In this document: in pieces, positions 20,511 through 59,042 of the stretch | How the letters are laid out: each line of letters opens with the position of its first letter | Numbering within the stretch: position 1 is the first letter of the stretch | NCBI GenBank assembly: GCA_004298675.1 | Contig: SCRI01000026.1 | Span: 1 to 59,042, forward strand | DNA from: a bacterium | GTDB lineage: Bacteria > Vulcanimicrobiota > Vulcanimicrobiia > Vulcanimicrobiales > SCRA01 | DNA: 59,042 bases | Direction: 5' to 3' | Notes under the pieces: model-generated | Database searches by the model: none | The model's input: only the letters and a program-made list of their open reading frames with translations | Told to the model about the DNA's origin: nothing | Position numbers and translations under genes: made by a program

Positions 20511-22757
20511 TTAGAATTTCTGTCCAATCGCAAAGCTCATGTGACCGCCGCTCTGCCCGACCGCGAAGTCCAGTCGAATCGTATGGAGCCCGAGCTGCGG
20601 CAGATCGAAGCGCACGCCGAAGCCGACGTCGCTGTGGAACTGATAGTTGGCCAGCGGCGAGAGCACGAGCGAGTTGCCGACATACTGCTGCGCGCCCCGC
20701 AACCGCACGCCGCCCGACTCGGCGAAGAGCGCGCCCATGACTTTGCGCTCGTGCGAGAGCGGGAAGCGCAGCTCGGCTTGCCCCAGCAGCAGATCGGTGC
20801 CGTAGAACACGTCGGTATACGCCGAGAGTTCCTGCTCTCCCAGCATGTAGACGGCACTGGGCGGTATCGCGCCGCTGGAGGTGCCGTACTGCCCGTGCAG
20901 TCCGAACGTGGCCCCATGCAAGACCGGCCAGAAGCGCTTGGTGTCGAGAATCGTCTTCGTGTAATCGAAGTCGGAGCCCAGCGATTTGTTGGAGACTTCG
21001 AGCGAGACCGAGTTGTTCCAACCCGCGCGCGGATTGAAGACGTCGTCACGCGTGTCCTGCACCAGCCCCAGCGTCACGGAGTGCAAGTTCTCCGGCCGCG
21101 TGCCTGAGACCGCCGCAATCGACGGGATCGTATTGGCGTAGATCGAGGTCGTGGTACCGGTGCTCGGCAGAATGTTGCTTTGGTTGGGTGTGGTCGGCAG
21201 ACTCAGGATCGTCGGATTGTTGATGAGCGTGTACCCGAGCGGTGCCGTGAACGAGGCGAAGACGCGCTGGAGATTCAGGCCCACGCTGCCGCGCACGTAG
21301 TCGGTGAAACGGCGGCCGAGCTGGAACGAGAAGCCCGCAGTCCGCGAATCGTAGTTGGCCACGGGTCCACCCACCGCACCCTGCCCCGCATACTGCTGGT
21401 AGATCGAGACGGGCGTCGAGGTGGGAATGGGCAATGGTGTGCCGCCCGGCGCCGGCGTTGGATTGGCCACCGCGTAGACGGGATACAGGTTGGTCTGCAC
21501 GTTGTTGAAGACGGAGGCGCCGAAGCTGTACTTCTCGAGCTTGGGCGAGCCGCCTAGGTACGGCATCGTGAGCGAAGCCGAGATCAGCGAGAGGCGCGCA
21601 CCGCGCTGAAACTGCACAGAAGCGCCGTTACCGGTACCGTTGATGTTGTTCTGCGAATATCCGATGTTCCCGACGAGGCCCTCGCCGTTCGCACCACCCG
21701 AGTACCCGACCCCGGCGACGGCTTGACCGGTGCGCTCCTCAGCCACCTTCCAGACCAGCGTCACGTCTTGCGGTTTGGTCGTGTCGGGACCGGGCTTGGC
21801 CGTGACGTCGACCTTCGAGAAGAAGCCGGTGTTGTTGAGGCGCTCGTAGTCGCGGCGCAGTCCGCTCTGCGTGATGATCATGCCCGGACGCAGGCGCAGC
21901 TCGCGACGGATTACGTAGTCGCGCGTCTTGGTGTTGCCGGTGATCTCGACGGCGGCAACGCGCGCGACGTCCACTTCATACTTCACGTCGGCGGTCCCGG
22001 CGGTGAGGTCCACCGTCGCCGGGTCGATGCCGCCCTGGCAGAAGCCGCGCTCTAGATCTAGCGAGTCGAAGTACTTGCTGACGGCGTCGCAGTCTTGGGT
22101 CTCCAACTCCTGCGACCACGTCACCCCGGGCTTGGTCTCCAGCTTCGACGCGATCAGCGGCGCGGGCACCACGGTATCGCCGGTCACGCTGACCTGTTTC
22201 ACGACCAGGCCCTCCTGGACGGTGAGCGCGAGCTGTCCCGTCTTGGAGTCCAGGTTGAGATTCTTCACGTGCGTGGGAAGCTGGCCGCCGTACCCGATCT
22301 TGTCGTAGTAGGAGTTGATCTTCAGCACGTCTTCGTGGAAAGTGTTCTCGTTGAACACCTGCCCGGGGGCGGTGTCCATCAACGCCAACAGCGTGTCCGA
22401 CGGCACGTGCGCGTTGCCGTCGAAGACGATCTTCGTGATGACGGGATTCTCGACCACGCGGAAGGTGATGGCCACGCCGGTGGGGCGCTGCGTCACCAGC
22501 GGGGGCAGCACGTCGGTGAAGTAGCCCAGCTGCGAGATGGCCTGATTGTCGGCGGTGAGCTGCTTCTGATCCAGCGGCTCTCCGGCTTTGGTCTGGACCG
22601 CCGCCAGGATCTTCTCGCTGGGTACGTGGGCATTTCCGGTCACGGAGACAGCGACGACGGTCGACCCGGCGGCTGTGGCCGGTCCACCCGTGAAGAGGGC
22701 GGCCACGAGAGCCAGGATCACGAACGCGACGACGGCGCGCTTCGCGCGAGATTGCAT
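20511..22757 (-). CDS. bamA: Outer-membrane protein assembly factor BamA
   Basis: A 748-residue Omp85 protein. The ATG at 22757 is chosen because AGGAAGGT lies about 8 bases upstream; a longer in-frame start exists at 22799. A signal peptide (about 1-30) is followed by four POTRA domains with repeat openings VVAVSVTGNAHVPSEKIL, ITKIVFDGNAHVPSDTLL, VKQVSVTGDTVVPAPLI and VAAVEITGNTKTRDYVI. E. coli BamA has five. The barrel (about 365-748) ends in MSFAIGQKF with the terminal Phe. POTRA3 carries two Cys residues, possibly a disulfide. It leads the skp-lpx-lpt genes. Confidence 0.95.
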   Translation of the reverse strand: MQSRAKRAVVAFVILALVAALFTGGPATAAGSTVVAVSVTGNAHVPSEKILAAVQTKAGEPLDQKQLTADNQAISQLGYFTDVLPPLVTQRPTGVAITFRVVENPVITKIVFDGNAHVPSDTLLALMDTAPGQVFNENTFHEDVLKINSYYDKIGYGGQLPTHVKNLNLDSKTGQLALTVQEGLVVKQVSVTGDTVVPAPLIASKLETKPGVTWSQELETQDCDAVSKYFDSLDLERGFCQGGIDPATVDLTAGTADVKYEVDVARVAAVEITGNTKTRDYVIRRELRLRPGMIITQSGLRRDYERLNNTGFFSKVDVTAKPGPDTTKPQDVTLVWKVAEERTGQAVAGVGYSGGANGEGLVGNIGYSQNNINGTGNGASVQFQRGARLSLISASLTMPYLGGSPKLEKYSFGASVFNNVQTNLYPVYAVANPTPAPGGTPLPIPTSTPVSIYQQYAGQGAVGGPVANYDSRTAGFSFQLGRRFTDYVRGSVGLNLQRVFASFTAPLGYTLINNPTILSLPTTPNQSNILPSTGTTTSIYANTIPSIAAVSGTRPENLHSVTLGLVQDTRDDVFNPRAGWNNSVSLEVSNKSLGSDFDYTKTILDTKRFWPVLHGATFGLHGQYGTSSGAIPPSAVYMLGEQELSAYTDVFYGTDLLLGQAELRFPLSHERKVMGALFAESGGVRLRGAQQYVGNSLVLSPLANYQFHSDVGFGVRFDLPQLGLHTIRLDFAVGQSGGHMSFAIGQKF

Positions 22758-47858: not shown

Positions 47859-47976
47859 TGTGGTCGTGCCCGTCGAGCAAGGCAAGCCGCGTAGGTTGCG
47901 GGTAGCGACGTGGCGAACGCCTAGCGCATCGCCACGGATCGGCGGGTGCCTATTACGACGTCGCCGCGGAGCGCTA

Positions 47977-50900
47977 ATGTCGACGCTTACGGAAATCTTC
48001 GCGCCGGGTGCGCAGCCTTTGGCCGAAGGGCTGAAAACCCTCACACTTTCTCCGGACCGCGCGGTCAAACCTGGAGAGACCGTTCGCGTTCGCTTTGCGT
48101 TCTCCAACGTTGGAAGCGCGATCGCCACCGGCGTGCGGGTGAAGCTGCGCCTGCCCGATCACGGGCGTTACGTTGCCAACTCCGCGCAGATCGACGAGAA
48201 CCGCTATCCCGACGAAGGCGGCACGACGCCGTTTTTGGCGGCTGCCGGCGGCGCGGTTCCGGATCTCACCCCCGGCGAGGCGCGCGTGCTCTCGCTCGAG
48301 TTTCGCGTCGAGGGGCCTATCGAGGACGGCACCCAGTTGGCCGCGCAAGCGGCGCTGGCCGCCGACGGCACGCCCGTCGTGGGCTCGAACGTGGCAACTG
48401 TGACGGTGCGAAGCCGCCCGCAGCTGCGCGGCGAGCTGACCGCGTTGACGATTGAGGCTCCGCACGGCAATCGGCCGGGTTCTGAGATCGCGCTGCGCGT
48501 CACCATCCACAACCACGGTCAGTCGACGGCACGCGAGGTCACCTTGGCCCTGCCCGTGCCGGATCGAACCGTCTACGTTGCGCGCTCCGTGCGCGTCGAT
48601 GGCCGCCAACTCGGCGAGAGTGCGGGCGAGCCCTTCCCCGTCCAGGAGCAACGCGTGGTCTGCGCGGCGCTTGCGCCTTCGCGCACGCTCGTCGTCAGCT
48701 ATGGCGTGAAGATCACGCAACCGCTCGCCGATGGCGCGCTGATCACCGCGCAGGGCTCGATCGGCGCGCGTGAGGAAGGTGAGTTCGAGCTGGCGCCCGC
48801 CAGCATCGAGGTGCGCTCCCCGGCCGAGTTCGGCGTGGGCACGGGCATCGAAGTCGATGCCGGTGAGGACGTCACGCCGGGGCAGCGGCTGCGCATCGGA
48901 GTCGGCTACCATAATGTCGGCAGCGGCACGGCCGACGACGTGCGGATCGCGCTGGCGCTGCCGGAGGGCCTGATCTACTCACCGGGCTCGACCACCGCGA
49001 ACGGGCGCGCCGCCGGCGACGATTTGGCCGTGCGCATCGCGGAGATCCCTCCGGGGGGCAGCGGGCGCGTCGCGGTCGAGGCCATCGTGGCCTCGCCGGC
49101 GCCGACTGGGCGCCGCCTGGCCGTGCGCGCGATGATGCAGTGGCGCGGCGGCGAGCGTGCCTTCGATAAAGTCCTGCGCGTGCGCTCGGCACCGGAGTTT
49201 CCGGAGGCCATCAATCGCTTCGAATTGCGCAGTTCCAACCACGCCGCGCCCGGCGAGGACGTGGTGGGGCGGCTGACGATCAGTAATGGCGGCACCGATT
49301 TGGCACGCGACGTGCGGGTGAGCGTCGCCGCCGGCGAGGGCTTGGAGTCCCTGCGCGTTCGCCGCGACGGTGCGACGCTCGAGATCGAGGACGGCAACGT
49401 GCGGATCGGCGACATGGCTCCACTGGAGCCGGTGCGCCTGGACGTCATCGCGCGCGTCTCCAGCCCGCTGCCCGACAAGAGCGAGTTGCGCCTGTGGGCC
49501 AAGGTGGCGGCGCAGGACGTCGCGGAGAGCGATGTGGGCTCGATCGCCGTCGTGGCTGTATCGCGCCCGCGCTTCCCACAGCAAGCACAGCGCCTGCGCG
49601 TGGCCTCCGAGCAGCCGGTGCGCCCCGGCAAGAGCGTAGAGGTTGCGTTCTCGATTCGCAACGAGGGCACCGATGCCGCGCGCGACGTGGCATTGACGCT
49701 GGAGTTGCCGGCCGAATTGACGCTTGAGAGCGTGGAGGGGGCGTCGCGGCGCGGCGAGCGGATGCTGGTGTTGGGCGCGGTGGAGCCGGAGGGCACGGCA
49801 TCCGGGACGTTGACGCTTGCGCTGACGGAGGGGGTGCGCGCGGGCACGCTGCTGCCGGTGGGGGCGCGGCTCGCGTGCGCCAACGGGCCCACCGCACTGT
49901 TGGAGCCGGTGGAGATCGCGGTGACCGCCGCGCCCTCGTTCGCCTCGGCTACCCTGCGGGTCGATCCCTCCGACGAGGCCTCGCCGGGGGAGATCCTCGC
50001 CTGCACGCTGGCGGCGCGCAACGACGGCGACGGGATCGCAACGCGCCTCACGCTCACCGTCGAGCCGCCCGCGCAAACTACGTATCTGCCCGGCTCCACG
50101 GAGATCAACGGCGTGGGCGTGGTCGACATCGCCGGTGCCTCGCCGCTCGTAGGCGGCCTGACGTTGGCGGGCGTCGCGCCGGGTACCGAGCTGGTGGTCG
50201 CCTGGCGCGCGGCGGTGAACTCGCCCGTGGAGCCCGGCAGTGAATTGGTGGCGCGGGCGCGCCTGACGTGGGAGGAGGGAGCGCTGCAGCTGGAGAGCAC
50301 GCCGGCAATCGTGCGCTCGCTCCCCGCCTTCGGCGTTGCCTCGCCGCTGCCGTTTACGGTCTTGGGGGTCGTGCTGCAGCCCCGCGTCGAGCGTTCAGTT
50401 ATTCCGGCGCCGGCGCCGGCATTAGCGGAAGCGCTTGCGGCGCCAGAGCCGCTGCGGCCGGAACCTCTACAACCGGAACCCCTACAGGAACTAGAGCCCG
50501 TACCGGCGTTGGAGGCGCCCACACCTCCGCCCGCGTCCGCCCCTGCGGCACCCTCGCTGCTCGAGAGCGTGGGCGGCAGCGTGGCGGCCGTTTCGGTCTA
50601 TTCGGCCGAGCGTCTCGGCCGAGCCCTCCGCTTGATCTCCGGCGTGGAGGGCGGCGCGCTCTTCCCGCACCTCTTTGCCATCCGGGCCTTCCTGCCCGAT
50701 CGCCTCATCGGCGCGCCGGCGTTGGAGGAGTTGCTGGAGGGCGAGCGCGAGCGGCTGCACGAGTTGCTCGATCATCTCTTCATCAAGTTGCGGCTGCCGC
50801 GTTACTTGGTATCGCAAAAGGACCTGGAGGACCGGCCAGCCCGCGCGGCTCTGATCGCGCTCATGCGTGGGATCGCAGAGCAGCATGGGGCTTCCAGCGA

Positions 50901-51243
50901 GTCCGTGCCGGCCGGATATGTGGTGTTGACGGGTGCGATCGGCACGGCGGAGGCAAGTGTTGCCGTGGATGATCTCGAGGGGGCCCCACTCGGCGGCGCG
51001 CGGCCGTGGCGGGCGCTGGCGGCGCTGCTGCCCACGGAGGGTGCAGGCGAGGTTGGATCGGCGTTGAGTGAGGCGCTGGCGGCCTACCGTATGCGTCTGC
51101 TGGAAGCGTTCGCCGATTTGGAGCGTCTGCCGCCCGGTGAGTTCCACCGCGTGCTTGCCGCACGCTCGCCCGAGCCGCTCGACGGCGCGCTCGAGCACGT
51201 GCGTCTGGTTGCAGCGCGTCTAGGGGAGCGCGCGACCGCGTAG
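47977..51243 (+). CDS. Large DUF11/CARDB-like repeat protein without signal peptide
   Basis: A 1088-residue protein; GGAG lies before the ATG at 47977. Residues about 1-810 hold at least six Ig-like repeats of about 130 residues. Each opens with a PGE/PGK motif and an N-x-G step: PGETVRVRFAFSNVGSAIAT, PGSEIALRVTIHNHGQSTAR, PGQRLRIGVGYHNVGSGTAD, PGEDVVGRLTISNGGTDLAR, PGKSVEVAFSIRNEGTDAAR, PGEILACTLAARNDGDGIAT. A Pro/Glu/Leu linker (about 835-870) leads to a helical C-terminal domain of about 215 residues with LLEGERERLHELLDHLF. No signal peptide or membrane helix is seen, which is odd for DUF11, a family usually found outside the cell. Function unknown. Confidence 0.8.
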   Translation: MSTLTEIFAPGAQPLAEGLKTLTLSPDRAVKPGETVRVRFAFSNVGSAIATGVRVKLRLPDHGRYVANSAQIDENRYPDEGGTTPFLAAAGGAVPDLTPGEARVLSLEFRVEGPIEDGTQLAAQAALAADGTPVVGSNVATVTVRSRPQLRGELTALTIEAPHGNRPGSEIALRVTIHNHGQSTAREVTLALPVPDRTVYVARSVRVDGRQLGESAGEPFPVQEQRVVCAALAPSRTLVVSYGVKITQPLADGALITAQGSIGAREEGEFELAPASIEVRSPAEFGVGTGIEVDAGEDVTPGQRLRIGVGYHNVGSGTADDVRIALALPEGLIYSPGSTTANGRAAGDDLAVRIAEIPPGGSGRVAVEAIVASPAPTGRRLAVRAMMQWRGGERAFDKVLRVRSAPEFPEAINRFELRSSNHAAPGEDVVGRLTISNGGTDLARDVRVSVAAGEGLESLRVRRDGATLEIEDGNVRIGDMAPLEPVRLDVIARVSSPLPDKSELRLWAKVAAQDVAESDVGSIAVVAVSRPRFPQQAQRLRVASEQPVRPGKSVEVAFSIRNEGTDAARDVALTLELPAELTLESVEGASRRGERMLVLGAVEPEGTASGTLTLALTEGVRAGTLLPVGARLACANGPTALLEPVEIAVTAAPSFASATLRVDPSDEASPGEILACTLAARNDGDGIATRLTLTVEPPAQTTYLPGSTEINGVGVVDIAGASPLVGGLTLAGVAPGTELVVAWRAAVNSPVEPGSELVARARLTWEEGALQLESTPAIVRSLPAFGVASPLPFTVLGVVLQPRVERSVIPAPAPALAEALAAPEPLRPEPLQPEPLQELEPVPALEAPTPPPASAPAAPSLLESVGGSVAAVSVYSAERLGRALRLISGVEGGALFPHLFAIRAFLPDRLIGAPALEELLEGERERLHELLDHLFIKLRLPRYLVSQKDLEDRPARAALIALMRGIAEQHGASSESVPAGYVVLTGAIGTAEASVAVDDLEGAPLGGARPWRALAALLPTEGAGEVGSALSEALAAYRMRLLEAFADLERLPPGEFHRVLAARSPEPLDGALEHVRLVAARLGERATA

Positions 51244-51850: not shown

Positions 51851-51865
51851 GCGGCGCTACGCCGC
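51851..51865. terminator. Short perfect hairpin between convergent genes
   Basis: GCGGCG-CTA-CGCCGC is a perfect 6-bp stem in the 9-base gap and the flagellin 3' end. It could serve both directions, but no T-run follows on either strand. Confidence 0.4.
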
Positions 51866-53161
51866 GGCGAACGACTGCTTCACCAGGGTGAATACTTGGT
51901 GGGAGTCGACGAACAGCGAGTGCAGCACGGCGGCCTGAACTTGTGAGAGCACTTGATCGCGCGTGAGACGCGTAGCGTCGCTGCCGATGTTGGCGTCACG
52001 GATCGTTGATGCCGCTGCCTGCAGCGAGGTTTGCTCGATCTGCGAGTTCGTTGCCTGCTCCTGCAGGCCGACTTCCTGCGCGCCCAGTTGTGCGCGCGCG
52101 CTCTCGACGAGTTGTAATGCGGTATCGATGCGCAGCAGCGCGTCGTTGACCGCGTACTCGTTGCTTTTGCCAGGCAGAATCGTGGAGCCGTCCGGCGAGT
52201 AGTTCGGCGGGAGGATCGAGATGTTCTGTAGCCCGAGGTCAGCGAGCTGGACGCTAGGCAGCGCCACCTGCAAGATGTCGCCTTCCGCGCCGCCGAGATT
52301 GATCTGCAGCGGGTGCGCGTCCATCTGTGCCGGGGTCGGCATCGGCGGGACGTAGGTAGCGAAAGCCATCGCCGTGCCTACATCCTGCGGTGAGAGATTG
52401 TTCAGCGTGAAGGATGCCTCGAGCTTCGTTCCACTGAAGTCGGTGATCGGAACGTTGATGAGAGAACCCATGCCGACCGGCACGAGTGACGTCGCGACCT
52501 GCTCCGGCCCGAAGTTCGGATCGGGGCTGTAGACGATCGTTTCGACCGTATCATTTCCGCCACTGTAGCCCGTGACGTGGATCTCGAAGTAGATCGGTGA
52601 AGCCGAGGCTCCCATGACAGGCACCGTGATCTGTGAGATCAGCTGGCCGCCGGTCGCGACGTTTGATCCCGGCGTCGACCCGTCGGGGTTGCGGCTGGGT
52701 GTGAGCATCTGAATGATCGGCAGTTGCGCTCTTAGCTCGGGCATGGCGAGGCTGCCGTCGAGAAGTTGACGTCCGTTGAACGAGGTGCGCTCCGCGATGG
52801 CATTGACCTCGTCCAATAGCGACGCGATCTCGGTTTGCATGGAGGTGAGGTCCTGCATACCGTTGAGGTCGGAGCCTGCCTGTATCGCCAAGTCGCGAAC
52901 GCGGGTCAAGATGTCCGTGACCGTTTGCAGCGCGCCGTCGGCGGTCTGCACCAGACCCTCGGCTTCTTGAACTCCCTGCAAACCCGTTTGGAGGCCGTTG
53001 ACCGTTGCCTGTTGGCGCTCCGAGATGGCCAGCCCGCTGGGATCATCGGCAGCCGACGATATGCGAAGTCCGCTCGACAGCCGGCGTACGGCAGTCGATA
53101 GATCCTCCATCGTTCGGCTTTGCCCAGACAGCACCGCGCCGCCCAGGCTGAGGACATCCAT
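51857..53161 (-). CDS. Flagellin
   Basis: A 434-residue flagellin. The conserved N-terminal D0/D1 region has LSSGLRISSAADDPSGLAIS, then ERQQATVNGLQTGLQGVQEA and DILTRVRDLAIQAGSDLNG. The C-terminal D1/D0 helix runs DALLRIDTALQLVESARAQL to QVQAAVLHSLFVD. The middle (about 155-335) is a variable beta-rich domain. The first residues MDVLSLGGAVLSGQSRTMED differ from the usual INTNxxAL start, and the tail extends about 20 residues further than typical. A FlgL-type hook protein is possible but less likely. No other flagellar genes are in the window. ATG at 53161 is preferred; the frame is open upstream. Confidence 0.88.
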   Translation of the reverse strand: MDVLSLGGAVLSGQSRTMEDLSTAVRRLSSGLRISSAADDPSGLAISERQQATVNGLQTGLQGVQEAEGLVQTADGALQTVTDILTRVRDLAIQAGSDLNGMQDLTSMQTEIASLLDEVNAIAERTSFNGRQLLDGSLAMPELRAQLPIIQMLTPSRNPDGSTPGSNVATGGQLISQITVPVMGASASPIYFEIHVTGYSGGNDTVETIVYSPDPNFGPEQVATSLVPVGMGSLINVPITDFSGTKLEASFTLNNLSPQDVGTAMAFATYVPPMPTPAQMDAHPLQINLGGAEGDILQVALPSVQLADLGLQNISILPPNYSPDGSTILPGKSNEYAVNDALLRIDTALQLVESARAQLGAQEVGLQEQATNSQIEQTSLQAAASTIRDANIGSDATRLTRDQVLSQVQAAVLHSLFVDSHQVFTLVKQSFAAA

Positions 53162-53374: not shown

Positions 53375-56300
53375 ATGCGCGGCGGCCGCTCCGTTCCCAC
53401 GTTAATGCTCCTCTCTGGGCTGCTCGCTGTCGGCGGGTCGGTCTCGTTGGCGCTTGGCACCGGTGCGCCACCGAAGTCTGTTTCGGATGTCGAAGGTGTT
53501 CGCGCTCGTGCCGTGCGGCATGCGGCGCCGTTGAAGGCTCGTCAAGATGCAGTCTCTGTCGTTGTAACGCCGAAGCTGCGGCTCGTCCGCACGCCACCGC
53601 CGTATCCGATCAGGAACGTGTGGTTGCGGCGCCTGGCCGTGCGTGTAGCGGATAGCGTAATCCTCGGCGCCGGCGCGGATGTGGAGCCCGAGGCGGCAAC
53701 GGACTCGCTACCGCCTGCGCCGGGGGTACCTCTGGCATTAGCGCCTTCGCCGGTGGCGTCGGCGGCGCCCGGCCCAGCGGCGGCGCCCGCGTACTCGCGT
53801 CGCGGCGGTCCGCTTACCTTTCAAGTCACCGGATCGCTCACGGCAGGCGAGCGTTACTCCTCGAGCACGTTGAGCGGTTCGATGGCCACGACGCAGAACA
53901 GTCTTGGGCTCACGACCGTCATCGGGCGCAGAACGCCGCGCACCGCGTTCTCACTGCAAGTTCCAACCACCGCCGCAGGGCACAACATCAACCTTGGGCA
54001 GACGCAGGCGGAGTACGACACCACGACGGCGAGCCTCATTTACGGGCCGCAGAGCATCTCGGCCCTGGGTCTGCTGCCGCTTGGCGGCACGTTGCGTGGC
54101 CTGGGTCTGGTCAAACCGATCCGCGGTGGGGATCTCTTGTTCTTCGCCGGGCCTGGCTATGCCAATGGTACCGACGGGGTGCATGTGTACGGCATGCGTG
54201 AGCGCGTTCTGGTCCATGGCGGGCTCATCAGCATGGGCGTTTTCTCGGGCAGCAGCGAGGTTGGTGCGGGGCGCATCGCCGGGCTCGATCTCGGCTACGC
54301 CGGTACGCAAGGGCGTTGGAACGAGACGTTGGAGGCTTTGCTCGAGCGGACGAGCGGTATGGCGCAAGGCGGTGTGTTTACGGGCCTCGCGGCGCCGGTG
54401 TCGACGCCGGCCAATGCGTTTGCGTATCAAGCGCGCGTCGATTACGGCGGCCGCTCGTCGTACGTCTCGGCCACGCTGCGCAACCTCCCAGTGACGTTTG
54501 CCGCGTTCTCTTCAGGCTTCCAAGGCGATAGGCTCGCCTCGCTCACCGCGCGTACAGCAGCGGGGAGCAGTAACCTAGCGCTGCAGACGGCGCGCGAAAC
54601 GGTGGGCGCGGGGTTGGCGCAGGAGCTCAATACACGCACGACTTTCTCCATCGACCGCCCGCTCTGGAGATCGACGGACGCCTCGCTCTTCCTCACGGAC
54701 GACAAGCAGACGCTGGCGGATCAGCAGCTTTGGACCGGCGGCGCGATCGCGACGCTAACGACCACGCTGAAGAACGTCGGAATTCAGGTGAACGGGCAGC
54801 TGCAGCGCTCCACCTATGACATCGCGGCACCTTCGGCGCAGAGCTCCTATGGGCTCACGGCCACGGGCGCGCTCTTCAAGCGGTACCAATTGCAGTCGTC
54901 ATATCAGATCGCGCAGCAGACGTCGTTGGGAACGATCAATCGATCCCGCGTCTTTTCCGCCGGCATCTCGCGAACGTTCGGCCGGCTCGCCGTCAGCCTC
55001 GTGGACACGCTAACGCGGACCGTCACTCCCGCCACGGATAGCCTCAGTACACAGCCGGTTCTCGCGATCAGCCGAAGCCTTTCACCGGCGATCACCCTGA
55101 CGGCGCAGGCTGGGTGGCAGTCCAATCGCGACAGGCTCAACCCTCTTGCCAACGGACGCTCCGCCATCTTCAACATTTCGCTCGGCACGCCGTTCTCGTT
55201 CGGTAACGGCGCGGCCACCGGGCGTGTCGATCCGCACCTGCCGGCCACGATCAGCGGAACCGTCTTCAGTGAGTCGACGAACTTCACCGGATTGCAGGCC
55301 GTGGCAATGCCAACCGGCGTGGGCAACATCGGCGTAATTCTCGACGGAACGCAGATCCAGCGTACCGATGCGCAGGGCCGTTTCCAATTCCAGTTCGTCA
55401 AGCCGGGAAACCATTACGTCGCGCTCGACGATGCAGGGCTGCCGCGCGGTATGACGCCGCTGCAACCGTACCTGAACGTCACCGTGCAAGGCGGTCAAGT
55501 GGCGCAGGTCTCGCTCGGCCTCGGTTCGTACGGCGCGCTCGGAGGGCGCGTCGTGGGGAGAGATCGCGAAGGCCGGGTCTTCCCGCTCCCGGCGGTACAG
55601 CTCACGCTCGACAAGGATGCGCAGACGACCGTTACCGGACCGAACGGGTACTACGGCTTTGGCCGCCTGGGGGCTGGGCGCCACACGGTGAGCGTGCGCG
55701 TCGACAGTCTCCCCGCCGAAGTGGGCCTCTCCGGTGCTCCCGAGCGCGCGGTCTCCGTACAGCTCGGGCAGGTAACGGAGTTGGATTTCCTGGCGGAGCC
55801 GCTGGGATCGATCGCGGGCCACGTCGTGCCGCAGGGCACTCCGGTTAGCGCTGGTGTTGGTATCAACAATGCCTACGTGATCGCGGAGCCCGGCGAACAC
55901 GCTGCCATCACCAACGAAGACGGAAGCTTCTTGCTCGACAATCTGCCGCCGGGAACGTACACGCTCAGTGTCGACCCCGAGACGCTTCCAATGGATACGG
56001 CTGTCGCTTCCGGCCCAACGGCGCCGGTGGTTTTGGCGGCAAATCAAAAGATCACGGATGTCTTGTTCGAGGTCGGCGCCAAAGAGCGGCCGATCGTCTT
56101 CAGCTTCCAGCAAAGCAGCGCTCCGGTGGTGTTGGCCTCGCTCGCACGCGCAGAGTTGCCGCCGGGCGGCGTCACGAGCGTGCGTGTCTCCGCGAGCGGG
56201 CCGGTCTCGGCGATCGTGGCCCGCGGTCTCGGTGTGGCGACACCGCTTCAGTACGATCAGCATGCGAAAGCGTGGCTCGGAAACTTCGTCGTTCCACCAA

Positions 56301-56635
56301 CTGCGAAGCCGGGGAAGTACACGTTGGAGATCGAGATATCCGGCGGCTCTAGCGCCACTGCGCCGTTGCAGGTAAACTCCTCCATTCCAACGCTCATGGC
56401 CAAACTGACGCCGGCGCGGCCGGAGCGCGGACAGTACGTGCGCGTCCAGGCGCTCTTCATCGTGGATGCGCGGGCAGGAGATGCGATCGCGTGGCAGGAC
56501 GGCGCGGTGACGCGGTTGCCCAAGCCGCTCAATGGACGCCTCTTCGCGTTCGACGTCAAAATTCCGCAGCTTCCGTATCATGGGATGCTAACGACGCGTG
56601 AGGGCGCCGTCCCGATCGTGCTCACGGCTCGCTAA
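53375..56635 (+). CDS. Outer-membrane barrel protein with carboxypeptidase-regulatory-like domains, usher-like candidate
   Basis: A 1086-residue exported protein. A signal peptide covers about 1-28. A Pro/Ala-rich stretch (about 105-150) precedes a long run of amphipathic beta-strands (about 155-620), such as LGLTTVIGRRTPRTAFSLQV and RRYQLQSSYQIAQQ-like pairs, which looks like an outer-membrane barrel. Residues about 625-910 hold three SdrD/carboxypeptidase-regulatory-like modules: DAQGRFQFQFVKPGNHYVAL, GPNGYYGFGRLGAGRHTVSV, NEDGSFLLDNLPPGTYTLSV. A further beta domain ends the chain. Genes for two secreted subunit-like proteins and a chaperone-like protein follow. I see no classic FimD usher motif, so the usher role is inference. 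Confidence 0.72.
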   Translation: MRGGRSVPTLMLLSGLLAVGGSVSLALGTGAPPKSVSDVEGVRARAVRHAAPLKARQDAVSVVVTPKLRLVRTPPPYPIRNVWLRRLAVRVADSVILGAGADVEPEAATDSLPPAPGVPLALAPSPVASAAPGPAAAPAYSRRGGPLTFQVTGSLTAGERYSSSTLSGSMATTQNSLGLTTVIGRRTPRTAFSLQVPTTAAGHNINLGQTQAEYDTTTASLIYGPQSISALGLLPLGGTLRGLGLVKPIRGGDLLFFAGPGYANGTDGVHVYGMRERVLVHGGLISMGVFSGSSEVGAGRIAGLDLGYAGTQGRWNETLEALLERTSGMAQGGVFTGLAAPVSTPANAFAYQARVDYGGRSSYVSATLRNLPVTFAAFSSGFQGDRLASLTARTAAGSSNLALQTARETVGAGLAQELNTRTTFSIDRPLWRSTDASLFLTDDKQTLADQQLWTGGAIATLTTTLKNVGIQVNGQLQRSTYDIAAPSAQSSYGLTATGALFKRYQLQSSYQIAQQTSLGTINRSRVFSAGISRTFGRLAVSLVDTLTRTVTPATDSLSTQPVLAISRSLSPAITLTAQAGWQSNRDRLNPLANGRSAIFNISLGTPFSFGNGAATGRVDPHLPATISGTVFSESTNFTGLQAVAMPTGVGNIGVILDGTQIQRTDAQGRFQFQFVKPGNHYVALDDAGLPRGMTPLQPYLNVTVQGGQVAQVSLGLGSYGALGGRVVGRDREGRVFPLPAVQLTLDKDAQTTVTGPNGYYGFGRLGAGRHTVSVRVDSLPAEVGLSGAPERAVSVQLGQVTELDFLAEPLGSIAGHVVPQGTPVSAGVGINNAYVIAEPGEHAAITNEDGSFLLDNLPPGTYTLSVDPETLPMDTAVASGPTAPVVLAANQKITDVLFEVGAKERPIVFSFQQSSAPVVLASLARAELPPGGVTSVRVSASGPVSAIVARGLGVATPLQYDQHAKAWLGNFVVPPTAKPGKYTLEIEISGGSSATAPLQVNSSIPTLMAKLTPARPERGQYVRVQALFIVDARAGDAIAWQDGAVTRLPKPLNGRLFAFDVKIPQLPYHGMLTTREGAVPIVLTAR

Positions 56636-56644
56636 GCGCGAATG

Positions 56645-56672
56645 TAAAGTTTCCATCAACTTCTCCCGATTG
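56645..56672 (+). promoter_or_regulatory. Sigma-28-like promoter and TAAAG repeats upstream of subunit gene
   Basis: TAAAGTTT at 56645-56652 equals the FliA -35 consensus. CCCGATTG follows at 56665-56672 after 12 bases and shares CCGAT with the -10 consensus. The GTAAAGT word recurs at 56696 (direct, with a shared CATCAA block after it) and at 56674 (inverted). The region 56636-56835 is less GC-rich than its surroundings and holds no gene. Confidence 0.5.
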
Positions 56673-56835
56673 CACTTTACAGAGAAATGTAGAACGTAAA
56701 GTGTGCATCAATTCAACCGCAGCGTCCTTGATGCGCGCGTAAACGTGCGCTACTCTCAAAACGGAGAGGGACCACAAGGGATACCACGGACGGTCGCCTC
56801 CCACTCTCCCGTAGCTCAGCCGAAAGGGACACACA

Positions 56836-57513
56836 ATGCGGAAGTTTGCCTCTGTCGCGGCGCTCATGGCGTTCTCCATTGCCTTCGCGACACCGACATT
56901 CGCGGCCGTCACCAAGACCGGGACGGTCAATATCACATGGAACACGAGTGCCACAGCCTCGCTCAGCGTCAACACAAATTACGTGAGTACCGGCCTCTTC
57001 TCGGCCACCACGGTAAACGAGTTGACGACCGCGAACGGCGGTACCGGCACGTGCACTGCATCGAGCCCCGCAGTAGCCGGCACCGATAACTTCGGGACCA
57101 TCAGCCCCGACTTCACCAACCCCACCGACTGCACGTACCAGAACGCCGTCAACCTTCAGGTTGCGACGAACAGCGTCAACTGGAACGTGACGGAGGCGCT
57201 CGGCGCCAATCCCGCGGGTGGTTACCTCCTCTGCGCGCTGCCGAACCCCGGCACGTCGAGCTGGCCGCTGGCGGCCACGGGCGCGGCTATGGCCGCTACG
57301 GTGAGCACGCGCACGAGCACCTCGGTCTCCGGCGGCGCCTGCGCCGCGGGTGATGCGCTTACGACAACGGCGTTGACGGTCGCCACCGGGACCGGCGCCT
57401 ATGCCTCCGGATCGCCGGCGAACTTGGGTGAGGACTTCGAGCTCATCGTGCCGGCAAACGGTGCCACCGGTTCGCAGACGCCGGTCATGAACATCACGCT
57501 GACGGCGAACTAG
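56836..57513 (+). CDS. Secreted beta-rich protein, putative fibre subunit A
   Basis: A 225-residue protein with a clear signal peptide (about 1-23, cut near TFAAVTK). AAAGGGA lies eight bases before the ATG. The mature chain is Thr/Ser/Ala-rich and beta-rich. Key segments are TGTVNITWNTSATASLSVNT, DNFGTISPDF and AVNLQVATNSVNWNVTEAL. Four Cys residues could form two disulfides. It is paralogous to the protein at the right edge: both share an early strand with WNT, a DFG-type turn, and an LxVxTN-x3-WxV block. It has the size and make-up of a pilin or surface-fibre subunit, but no named family is recognised. Confidence 0.75.
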   Translation: MRKFASVAALMAFSIAFATPTFAAVTKTGTVNITWNTSATASLSVNTNYVSTGLFSATTVNELTTANGGTGTCTASSPAVAGTDNFGTISPDFTNPTDCTYQNAVNLQVATNSVNWNVTEALGANPAGGYLLCALPNPGTSSWPLAATGAAMAATVSTRTSTSVSGGACAAGDALTTTALTVATGTGAYASGSPANLGEDFELIVPANGATGSQTPVMNITLTAN

Positions 57514-57595
57514 ACGGGTTTATCGGGAGAGGTCACGCGGCGGCGACGAAGTGTTAGGCTCCGTCCCGCCGGAGGACCTGCCGATACTGTAGAGC

Positions 57596-58387
57596 ATGAA
57601 GTTCAGCGCCCTCTTTCTCGCAGCGGGTCTCGCGCTGGCCGGGCTGGTTTCGGCCGCCCCGTCTTCCAGCATCGGTCTCGGTCTGGACGTCACCCCCGCG
57701 AAACTCGACATCTCGGTTCCCGCGGGCTCCAGTGAGAACATCCCGATCACCGTGCACAACTCCAGTGGATCGGGGACGCACGTGCAGGCATCGATGGCGG
57801 ACTTCACCGTGACAGGCCAGGGGCAGTATGAGTTCGCGAAGGTTGGGAGCATGCCGTACTCGCTGATGAGATGGGCATCCATCAACCCGCGTGAGTTCGA
57901 CCTCCCGCAGGATACGACGGAGCAGGTGCGCTTGACGCTCGCAGTTCCCGCCGGAGAGAAACTGACCGGGGAGTATGCCGGCGTGGTCTTCTTCCAGACT
58001 CGGCCGGAGCGGCGGAAAGGCGCGATCTCGTTCTCAGCGCGCATCGCGGCCAAGGTCTATGCAACGGTGCCGGGTACCGTGAAACTTTCGGGCGCCATCG
58101 AAAAGGTTAGCGCGAGCGCGAGTTCCGGCGGGGAATCCTATCGGGTCTTGTTCGCGAATCTCGGTAACGCCCACGTCTATCTCAACGGCCGTATCGAGGT
58201 GCGGCAGAACGGAACGACCATCGAACGCGTTAATATGCCACCGCAGTTGCTGGTCGAGCGCGGTGGCAAGCGGCTCATCGAGGTCACTGGGAAGGCTCTT
58301 CCGGCAGGTAGCTATCAGGTCGTGGCGATCATCGACTATGGTGGCGCGGCGCTGACCGGGGGAGAGGCCCAGATCGTAGTCCATTAG
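57596..58387 (+). CDS. Periplasmic PapD-like chaperone candidate (Ig-fold)
   Basis: A 263-residue exported protein. The signal peptide ends near LVSAAPSS (about residue 22). The first Ig-like domain (about 28-150) shows LDVTPAKLDISVPAGSSENI, SLMRWASINPREFDLPQDTT and EYAGVVFFQTRPERRKG. This is the layout of pilus-assembly chaperones (basic residues before a hydrophobic edge strand, and a W-x-S/x-P-x-x-F/L block). A second beta domain ends the chain. It lies between the two subunit-like genes, as chaperones do in fimbrial operons. Fold similarity is moderate; no catalytic residue is expected. A plain DUF11-like adaptor is the alternative. Confidence 0.68.
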   Translation: MKFSALFLAAGLALAGLVSAAPSSSIGLGLDVTPAKLDISVPAGSSENIPITVHNSSGSGTHVQASMADFTVTGQGQYEFAKVGSMPYSLMRWASINPREFDLPQDTTEQVRLTLAVPAGEKLTGEYAGVVFFQTRPERRKGAISFSARIAAKVYATVPGTVKLSGAIEKVSASASSGGESYRVLFANLGNAHVYLNGRIEVRQNGTTIERVNMPPQLLVERGGKRLIEVTGKALPAGSYQVVAIIDYGGAALTGGEAQIVVH

Positions 58388-58405
58388 CGGTTGCGGAGTC
58401 ATCCA

Positions 58406-58419
58406 CGTCCACGTGGACG
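58406..58419. promoter_or_regulatory. Perfect 14-bp palindrome between chaperone and subunit B genes
   Basis: CGTCCACGTGGACG is self-complementary over all 14 bases. It sits 18 bases before the GTG start of the next gene. It could be a regulator-binding site or a small mRNA hairpin that tunes expression of the following gene. Confidence 0.45.
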
Positions 58420-58436
58420 AGGGCAGGGAAGCAAGA

Positions 58437-59042
58437 GTGTCGGTGCGTCGTCTGGTTCCACCCCTTTTTATAGCAGTGTTGCTGACGGCAGCGCCCTGTC
58501 TCGCGGCGGGCGGCTCGGTGGGGACGAAGTGGAACACCACCGGCATCGTCAAGATGGCCGTGACGCCAAATTACGCTACCGGGTACGGCACGGTGAAGGC
58601 GGTCTTCGGCACACAACCGGCGCCTGCACCGGGTCCCGGCGCCTCATACCAGGGGGGAGCCGTAGACTTCGGCAACGTGGTTCAAGGGTCGGACTACTTA
58701 TACAAATACGCCGCCCACTTGAACGTCTACACCAACGCCTCCAGCTTTATCGTGTACGCCGAGGGCTCCGCCGATTTCACCGGGACCGGATCCAACACCG
58801 GCAACGTGCTGCCCATCAATCAGAGCATCTACTGGCTCCCATCGGTGAACGGGACGTCGCAGACCGACGCCAATACCGGCTTCTCGTCTTCAACGCCGTT
58901 CCAGAAGACCTCGCAGCCGGGCTCCGCGTATAACAACCCGGCGATCACCTATACGACGACGCCGTCGCCGATCTACGTCTCCCCCATCGGTGGAACGGTC
59001 GATCTCTACTATGACTTCCAGTTGAAGCTTCCCAGCACGGCC
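58437..59042 (+). CDS. Secreted putative fibre subunit B (3' end outside window)
   Basis: A frame open from GTG at 58437 to the right edge (202 codons, no stop). AGGGA lies seven bases upstream of the start. The signal peptide (about 1-25) ends near CLAAGGS. The mature part reads TKWNTTGIVKMAVTPNYATG, then VDFGNVVQGSDYLYKYAAHL, NVYTNASSFIVYAEGSADF and, near the edge, VDLYYDFQLKLPSTA. It parallels subunit A in the WNT strand, the DFG turn and the LxVxTN block, so the two are paralogues. It is cut by the window edge; more subunits may follow. Confidence 0.78.
   Translation, partial: MSVRRLVPPLFIAVLLTAAPCLAAGGSVGTKWNTTGIVKMAVTPNYATGYGTVKAVFGTQPAPAPGPGASYQGGAVDFGNVVQGSDYLYKYAAHLNVYTNASSFIVYAEGSADFTGTGSNTGNVLPINQSIYWLPSVNGTSQTDANTGFSSSTPFQKTSQPGSAYNNPAITYTTTPSPIYVSPIGGTVDLYYDFQLKLPSTA

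Follow-up and report, generated by a model that had tools for sequence, protein, structure and literature searches.

A probable far-diverged chaperone-usher-like operon beside a flagellin-family gene in a member of the Vulcanimicrobiales

In chaperone-usher systems, the N-terminal domain (NTD) and the plug of the usher, as in FimD and PapC, count as core components. For the archaic systems, a carboxylate-anchor arginine has been described for CsuC (PMC4654587), and WxLIP proteins carry a transmembrane-helix anchor and have WxL-domain proteins as partners (PMC10599100). Contig SCRI01000026.1 of assembly GCA_004298675.1, from a bacterium of the order Vulcanimicrobiales, was analysed over its full length of 59,042 nucleotides (the window, which is the whole of contig C9 in a genome of 3.03 Mb); relatives within the order are recorded as Candidatus Eremiobacterota. 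At the right-hand end of the window begins an operon that probably encodes a far-diverged chaperone-usher-like machine building a subunit fibre at the outer membrane. A preliminary description had proposed such a divergent lineage for four consecutive + strand genes at 53375-59042. These genes were found as described (U, S1, C and S2), and the additional subunits suspected to the right of the window were located on a further contig of this genome, C34, where a third subunit, S3, and a two-domain tip-like protein, B, are encoded. The genes and the junction are as follows:

53375-56635, + strand: U, 1086 amino acids, usher-like outer-membrane barrel protein (predicted)
56836-57513, + strand: S1, 225 amino acids, secreted beta-sandwich subunit (predicted)
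57596-58387, + strand: C, 263 amino acids, predicted two-domain immunoglobulin (Ig)-like periplasmic chaperone with signal peptide
58437-59042, + strand: S2, second subunit, paralogue of S1, interrupted by the contig end
58923-59042, no strand: exact 120-bp overlap of the window end with the start of C34
C34, 171-884: S3, 237 amino acids, third subunit
C34, 894-4802: B, 1302 amino acids, putative giant tip-like protein

C34 was found by searching the same genome with the giant protein of a relative and with the subunit profile. Its first 120 bases are identical to the last 120 of the window, one copy being present in the window and one in the part of C34 that was read, and S2 could be followed there to its full C-terminus (...FVYIVYTVVPN); the open reading frame of S2 was listed from 58413, and the GTG at 58437 is the likelier start. 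The complete operon is U-S1-C-S2-S3-B, with six genes. The identical order was read directly at a further locus (L037); in other relatives, S2 stands after B or one gene is absent from a simple gene call. Among 61 genomes, relatives of U are present in 29 and relatives of C in 28, and in 25 of 28 genomes both lie on one contig, approximately 0.8-1.1 kb apart. Because they are conserved and co-localised across genomes, U and C are conserved genes and not chance frames. The organism is diderm, as seen from a gene for an Omp85 (BamA-like) protein in the window (20514-21647, - strand), which is evidence of an outer membrane, and from the presence of FlgH in the genome.

U consists of a signal-like N-terminal segment, a low-complexity linker up to about amino acid 142, a barrel, three transthyretin (TTR)/CarboxypepD_reg domains and two C-terminal beta domains, with the following predicted parts:

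53813-55186, + strand: beta-barrel, amino acids 147-604, 24 long strands (AlphaFold2), longest insertion about 42 residues
55226-55804, + strand: TTR-like domains 1 and 2, amino acids 618-810, aligning with the usher C-terminal domains CTD1-CTD2
55790-56623, + strand: TTR-like domain 3 (amino acids 806-902) and two C-terminal beta domains (amino acids 919-1083)

The view of U as a large barrel protein with carboxypeptidase-regulatory-like modules was borne out by CarboxypepD_reg modules significant in Pfam (E 2.3e-17; modules present in 25 of 25 family members) and by a predicted barrel. The AlphaFold2 model, calculated from a 25-row alignment (mean predicted local distance difference test, pLDDT, 74; predicted template-modelling score, pTM, 0.52), has a disordered N-terminus and 24 long strands, which is the usher number; the barrel is followed by five beta domains, counted from the strand list. 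Alignment of the profile of the 25 U members with 16 classical ushers from the organism's own phylum by hhalign gave a probability of 97.6 (E 4.2e-12, 395 columns); reversed and column-shuffled U profiles, used as controls, reached at most 5.0% and at most 35 bits, compared with 113 bits for the real match. Taken singly, U of the window matched ushers at 93.3%; across the family, 24 of 25 members gave 53-96%. When six further large proteins encoded at CarboxypepD_reg loci of this genome were compared with ushers, values of 0.4-5.8% resulted, and generic CarboxypepD_reg similarity was ruled out by this control as the source of the usher match. Most of the usher signal comes from the C-terminal part of U: TTR-like domains 1 and 2 could be aligned end to end with CTD1-CTD2 (hhalign probability 96.8, E 2.6e-10, 174 columns), and by profile comparison these usher domains are present in U as remote homologues. 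When the U model was submitted to Foldseek, the ten best PDB matches were FimD/PapC (E 1.3e-16 to 1.0e-12), with porins at 4.9e-7 or worse.

C, which had been taken for an Ig-fold chaperone-like protein, was matched to 13 classical chaperones of the phylum with a profile probability of 96.9% (E 1.3e-10, 193 columns) over both of its domains, and with 97.1% when FimC was added. Judged by these alignments, it is a PapD-like two-domain chaperone by remote homology only. After addition of FimC, K36 of C (57701-57703; K in 23 of 25 members) is aligned with FimC Arg8. K153 (58052-58054; likewise K in 23 of 25 members) is situated in an RIxxK[V/I]Y strand that resembles SRIKLYY of FimC and lies near FimC K112, offset by one residue in the profile alignment; R149 is retained by 24 of 25 members.

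The subunits S1 and S2 fuse into one family upon iterated search, in agreement with their proposed paralogy. The predicted model of S1 (pLDDT 84) is a beta-sandwich with an N-terminal segment to which no strand is assigned. Two segments of S1 are relevant to assembly:

56905-56946, + strand: candidate N-terminal donor strand, amino acids 24-37 (AVTKTGTVNITWNT), with V31, I33 and W35 alternating
57487-57507, + strand: C-terminal alternating strand, candidate for chaperone binding (F-like), amino acids 218-224

Across 39 subunits, the fraction of large hydrophobic residues at positions 31, 33 and 35 is 0.69, 0.95 and 1.00, respectively, and at most 0.08 at the positions between; all 39 have W or Y at position 35, and the same kind of alternation is seen in the C-terminal strand. 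These segments would fit a donor strand and a chaperone-held strand, respectively. The missing strand that had been envisaged for the subunits is suggested by the alternating N-terminal segment and its lack of an assigned strand in the S1 model, yet not proven. The 16 best Foldseek matches of S1, all non-significant, are mostly pilins or fibre subunits. The B family comprises 13 distinct proteins, whose last approximately 130 amino acids resemble the subunit family (profile match 96.3%, E 2e-9); the B family thus ends in a subunit-like domain, like two-domain tip adhesins. Downstream of B and on the other strand, at C34:4807-9047 (L146), lie cell-shape genes that run towards the end of B and were named PBP2-, MreD-, MreC- and MreB-like from their sequences alone.

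Several results weigh against a chaperone-usher-like assignment. As stated at the outset for the four genes, none carries a classic usher, chaperone or pilin motif: searches of Pfam and NCBIfam returned no usher, chaperone or pilin match in the operon families, PF00577 being unmatched by the 25 U members and PF00345 by C or its family in Pfam, which also contains no match to S1 or S2. The N-terminal docking domain and the plug that had been expected in the barrel protein are absent; amino acids 1-142 are disordered, poorly conserved and without match to the usher N-terminus, and the longest break between long strands (about 42 residues) leaves no plug-sized insertion in the AlphaFold2 model. 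Under the refuting condition set in the preliminary description, the missing docking domain counts against strict membership, although five other predicted beta domains stand behind the barrel. By itself, the barrel half of U is matched to ushers weakly, at 45% at most, and the Foldseek TM-scores of U are low (0.2-0.4), so that the overall arrangement in the model (pTM 0.52) is unreliable. In sequence, the subunits show no similarity to archaic pilins, the alignment being confined to the signal peptide, by which a sequence link between the two was ruled out; no match past E 0.001 was obtained in the fold search with S1. The C-terminus of the organism's own B, taken singly, matches the subunits weakly (35%). 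The archaic anchor position (R89) was placed at position 112 of C by its spacing from an invariant proline as read from alignments; 14 of 25 members have R there, 10 have Q and 1 has T, so that this anchor is not conserved. Finally, WxLIP_PGBD matches C in 24 of 25 members (best 2.1e-7), with 20.4 bits for C of the window, which is below the cut-off of 27.3.

Because the NTD, the plug and a PF00577 match were looked for and not found, the operon is not a strict chaperone-usher member. A divergent chaperone-usher-like lineage is nevertheless the best reading, given the remote similarity of U and C, the 24 strands and the further subunits, and there is a good probability that the operon works like a chaperone-usher system. 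The shared assembly pathway that had been assumed for its products is supported by the conserved co-localisation of U and C and by their likeness to two halves of one machine. Fibre assembly itself is inferred from sequence and predicted structure. In the proposed pathway, the operon proteins would be exported by Sec. In the periplasm, C would cap the subunits: it would grip their alternating strand at the C-terminus and contribute a strand of its own to the groove. The 24-strand barrel U would take up the complexes by way of the TTR-like and beta domains at its C-terminus, among which two are the counterparts of usher CTD1/CTD2; this route is proposed because an N-terminal docking domain is lacking, and TTR-like domain 3 together with the two C-terminal beta domains is proposed to substitute for the missing NTD and plug. 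The subunits would be joined by donor-strand exchange, the N-terminal strand (GxVxVxWNT) of the next subunit entering the groove of the previous one, and would give a surface fibre. B would be placed at the tip as an adhesive or functional end, the subunit-like C-terminal domain of its family standing behind about 1100 other residues.

Within the phylum, the C family is present in 46 of 149 genomes and classical ushers (PF00577) in 23 of 148. Both a classical usher and U were found in five genomes (G018, G042, G044, G049 and G050), in which the two systems therefore coexist. Classical archaic-type chaperone-usher operons of Eremiobacterota (L083-L100) served as comparators here; within the limited literature searched, none of the papers dealt with them. 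When plasmids were searched by tblastn, no relatives were obtained with U, and the C query led to Deinococcus plasmid clusters of the order S-C-X-U' (NZ_CP140100, NZ_CP026517 and NZ_CP034185), with profile matches of 99.8% for C and 98.9% for U'. These clusters (L131, L132 and L133) comprise four genes, at about 10.9-16.6 kb, with a gene X of about 180 amino acids. Two of the three subunits have a near-terminal strand (TLTYTL) similar to that of the window operon, whereas U' carries Ig-like domains N-terminal to the barrel, unlike U of the window, the small gene X is different, the subunit sequences cannot be aligned, and the annotated neighbours include neither a giant B nor a flagellin. At L138 in G075, a distant genome of the phylum, a C relative adjoins a 1023-amino-acid U' like those in Deinococcus, along with several small proteins that look secreted. 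In some Eremiobacterota, U is replaced beside a C relative by a protein of approximately 700-780 amino acids that has one TTR-like domain in common with U (96.9%). This protein was seen at L134, L135, L136, L137, L139 and L140, in some cases with a weak Cu_amine_oxidN1-like N-terminus, and is close to a C relative at L134, L135, L137 and L139; together with C, it possibly represents a second subtype that has retained an N-terminal domain.

On its other side, U is bordered by a gene in divergent orientation:

51857-53161, - strand: flagellin-family gene, divergently adjacent to U

A flagellin-family gene occupies this position at 26 of 28 other U loci (L050-L077). U was found in 29 of 33 flagellin-positive and in 0 of 28 flagellin-negative relatives (61 genomes; Fisher p 2.6e-13, uncorrected for phylogeny and thus ignoring shared ancestry); in 29 of the 29 genomes with a real U match, a flagellin lies above the cut-off. 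The single-contig genome G004 (3.5 Mb) has neither U nor flagellin; Vulcanimicrobium alpinus has a genome of 3.50 Mb and no flagella (PMC9758169). The gene beside U is a paralogue distinct from the two flagellin-family genes on contig C38, and its match to the Flagellin_N profile starts near profile position 15. Neither a sigma-70 promoter nor a terminator was found between it and U. Upstream of it, at 47953-51243 (+ strand), a protein with several DUF11/CARDB Ig-like repeats is encoded, which does not match the chaperone or usher profiles.

This association would also fit an operon that makes a flagellar accessory in place of an independent fibre, with U secreting beta-rich proteins that coat, sheathe or anchor the filament, or that replace part of its outer-membrane passage. 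We consider this unlikely: the gene content is that of a chaperone-usher operon, the Deinococcus cousins have no flagellin among their annotated neighbours, and of 21 genomes tested for FlgH, the outer-membrane ring protein, 11 carry U and 10 of these have FlgH, so that U is not needed as a ring and was ruled out as an L-ring substitute. The flagellin link may stem from nothing more than common regulation or inheritance; it is also consistent with a motility-regulated fibre, which might be co-regulated with the flagella. Quite improbable is a transcription unit in which an outer-membrane channel with CarboxypepD_reg modules is combined with unrelated secreted beta proteins that have no common assembly pathway. 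Large CarboxypepD_reg proteins are indeed common, several being encoded in the same genome, but these do not match ushers; co-localisation is kept across the order and in Deinococcus, and U and C resemble two halves of one known machine, by which this proposal is largely contradicted. Least probable is a WxL/WxLIP-type complex in a diderm, with C holding WxL-like proteins at the surface and the barrel U anchoring them without polymerisation: in addition to the WxLIP_PGBD matches, the best PDB profile match of C is EfmWxLIP1, but this is not significant (E 0.023), none of the 39 subunits matches the WxL family (by which they were ruled out as WxL proteins), C matches chaperones too and over both domains, and the usher-like similarity of U and the linkage of U and C would be left unexplained. 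We read the resemblance of C to WxLIP as shared Ig-like ancestry, not membership.

With the chaperone-usher-like fibre machine as the preferred reading, it is conceivable, if still tentative, that the operon belongs to a fourth chaperone-usher-like lineage, common to Eremiobacterota and Deinococcota, with an usher devoid of NTD and plug and with a functional tie to the flagellum in Eremiobacterota. In a limited search of the literature, in which absence proves little, no paper was found that pairs chaperone-usher with Eremiobacterota or outer membrane usher with carboxypeptidase regulatory-like domain, and nothing relevant on chaperone-usher with WxL or with transthyretin-like. A lineage apparently without NTD and plug, in two phyla distant from the model organisms, would reveal the essential parts of the pathway and offer a deep outgroup for studying how donor-strand fibres evolved. 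It would also connect these fibres with motility in a phylum of which the first representative to be cultivated lacks flagella. The standard family models that were tried do not detect the system, and such systems have therefore probably been missed in surveys.

Among the known systems, the Gram-positive WxL/WxLIP clusters share with the window operon a WxLIP_PGBD-like N-terminal domain in C, below the cut-off; in the operon, neither a transmembrane-helix anchor (C ends in ...GGEAQIVVH without a hydrophobic helix) nor WxL-domain partners were found. The alternative (alpha) system EcpABCDE has the same composition of barrel, chaperone and subunits, and the aromatic residue in the proposed subunit donor strand recalls EcpA Trp11 (PMC4654587); it differs in that no profile match was obtained between U and EcpC alone or between C and EcpB alone. 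From type 1 pili (FimACDFGH), the operon differs by the absence of NTD and plug and of any direct profile match to FimC or FimD alone (the classical ushers of the phylum, as a control, match FimD at 99.6%); alike are the fold of U, for which FimD/PapC are the best matches, the position of K36 of C at FimC Arg8, and a two-domain tip-like protein. Archaic (sigma) chaperone-usher pili of the Csu type, among them those of the phylum's classical operons, are distinguished by their PF00577, PF00345 and pilin families, their usher NTD and plug and their anchor arginine, which is unconserved in C; in the window operon, three extra C-terminal domains are present in U, the subunits are unrelated in sequence, and the tip protein measures approximately 1300-1450 amino acids. 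With these pili, the operon has in common a two-domain Ig-like chaperone, a predicted 24-strand barrel, two C-terminal usher domains, and several small subunits with a tip-like protein, all in one operon.

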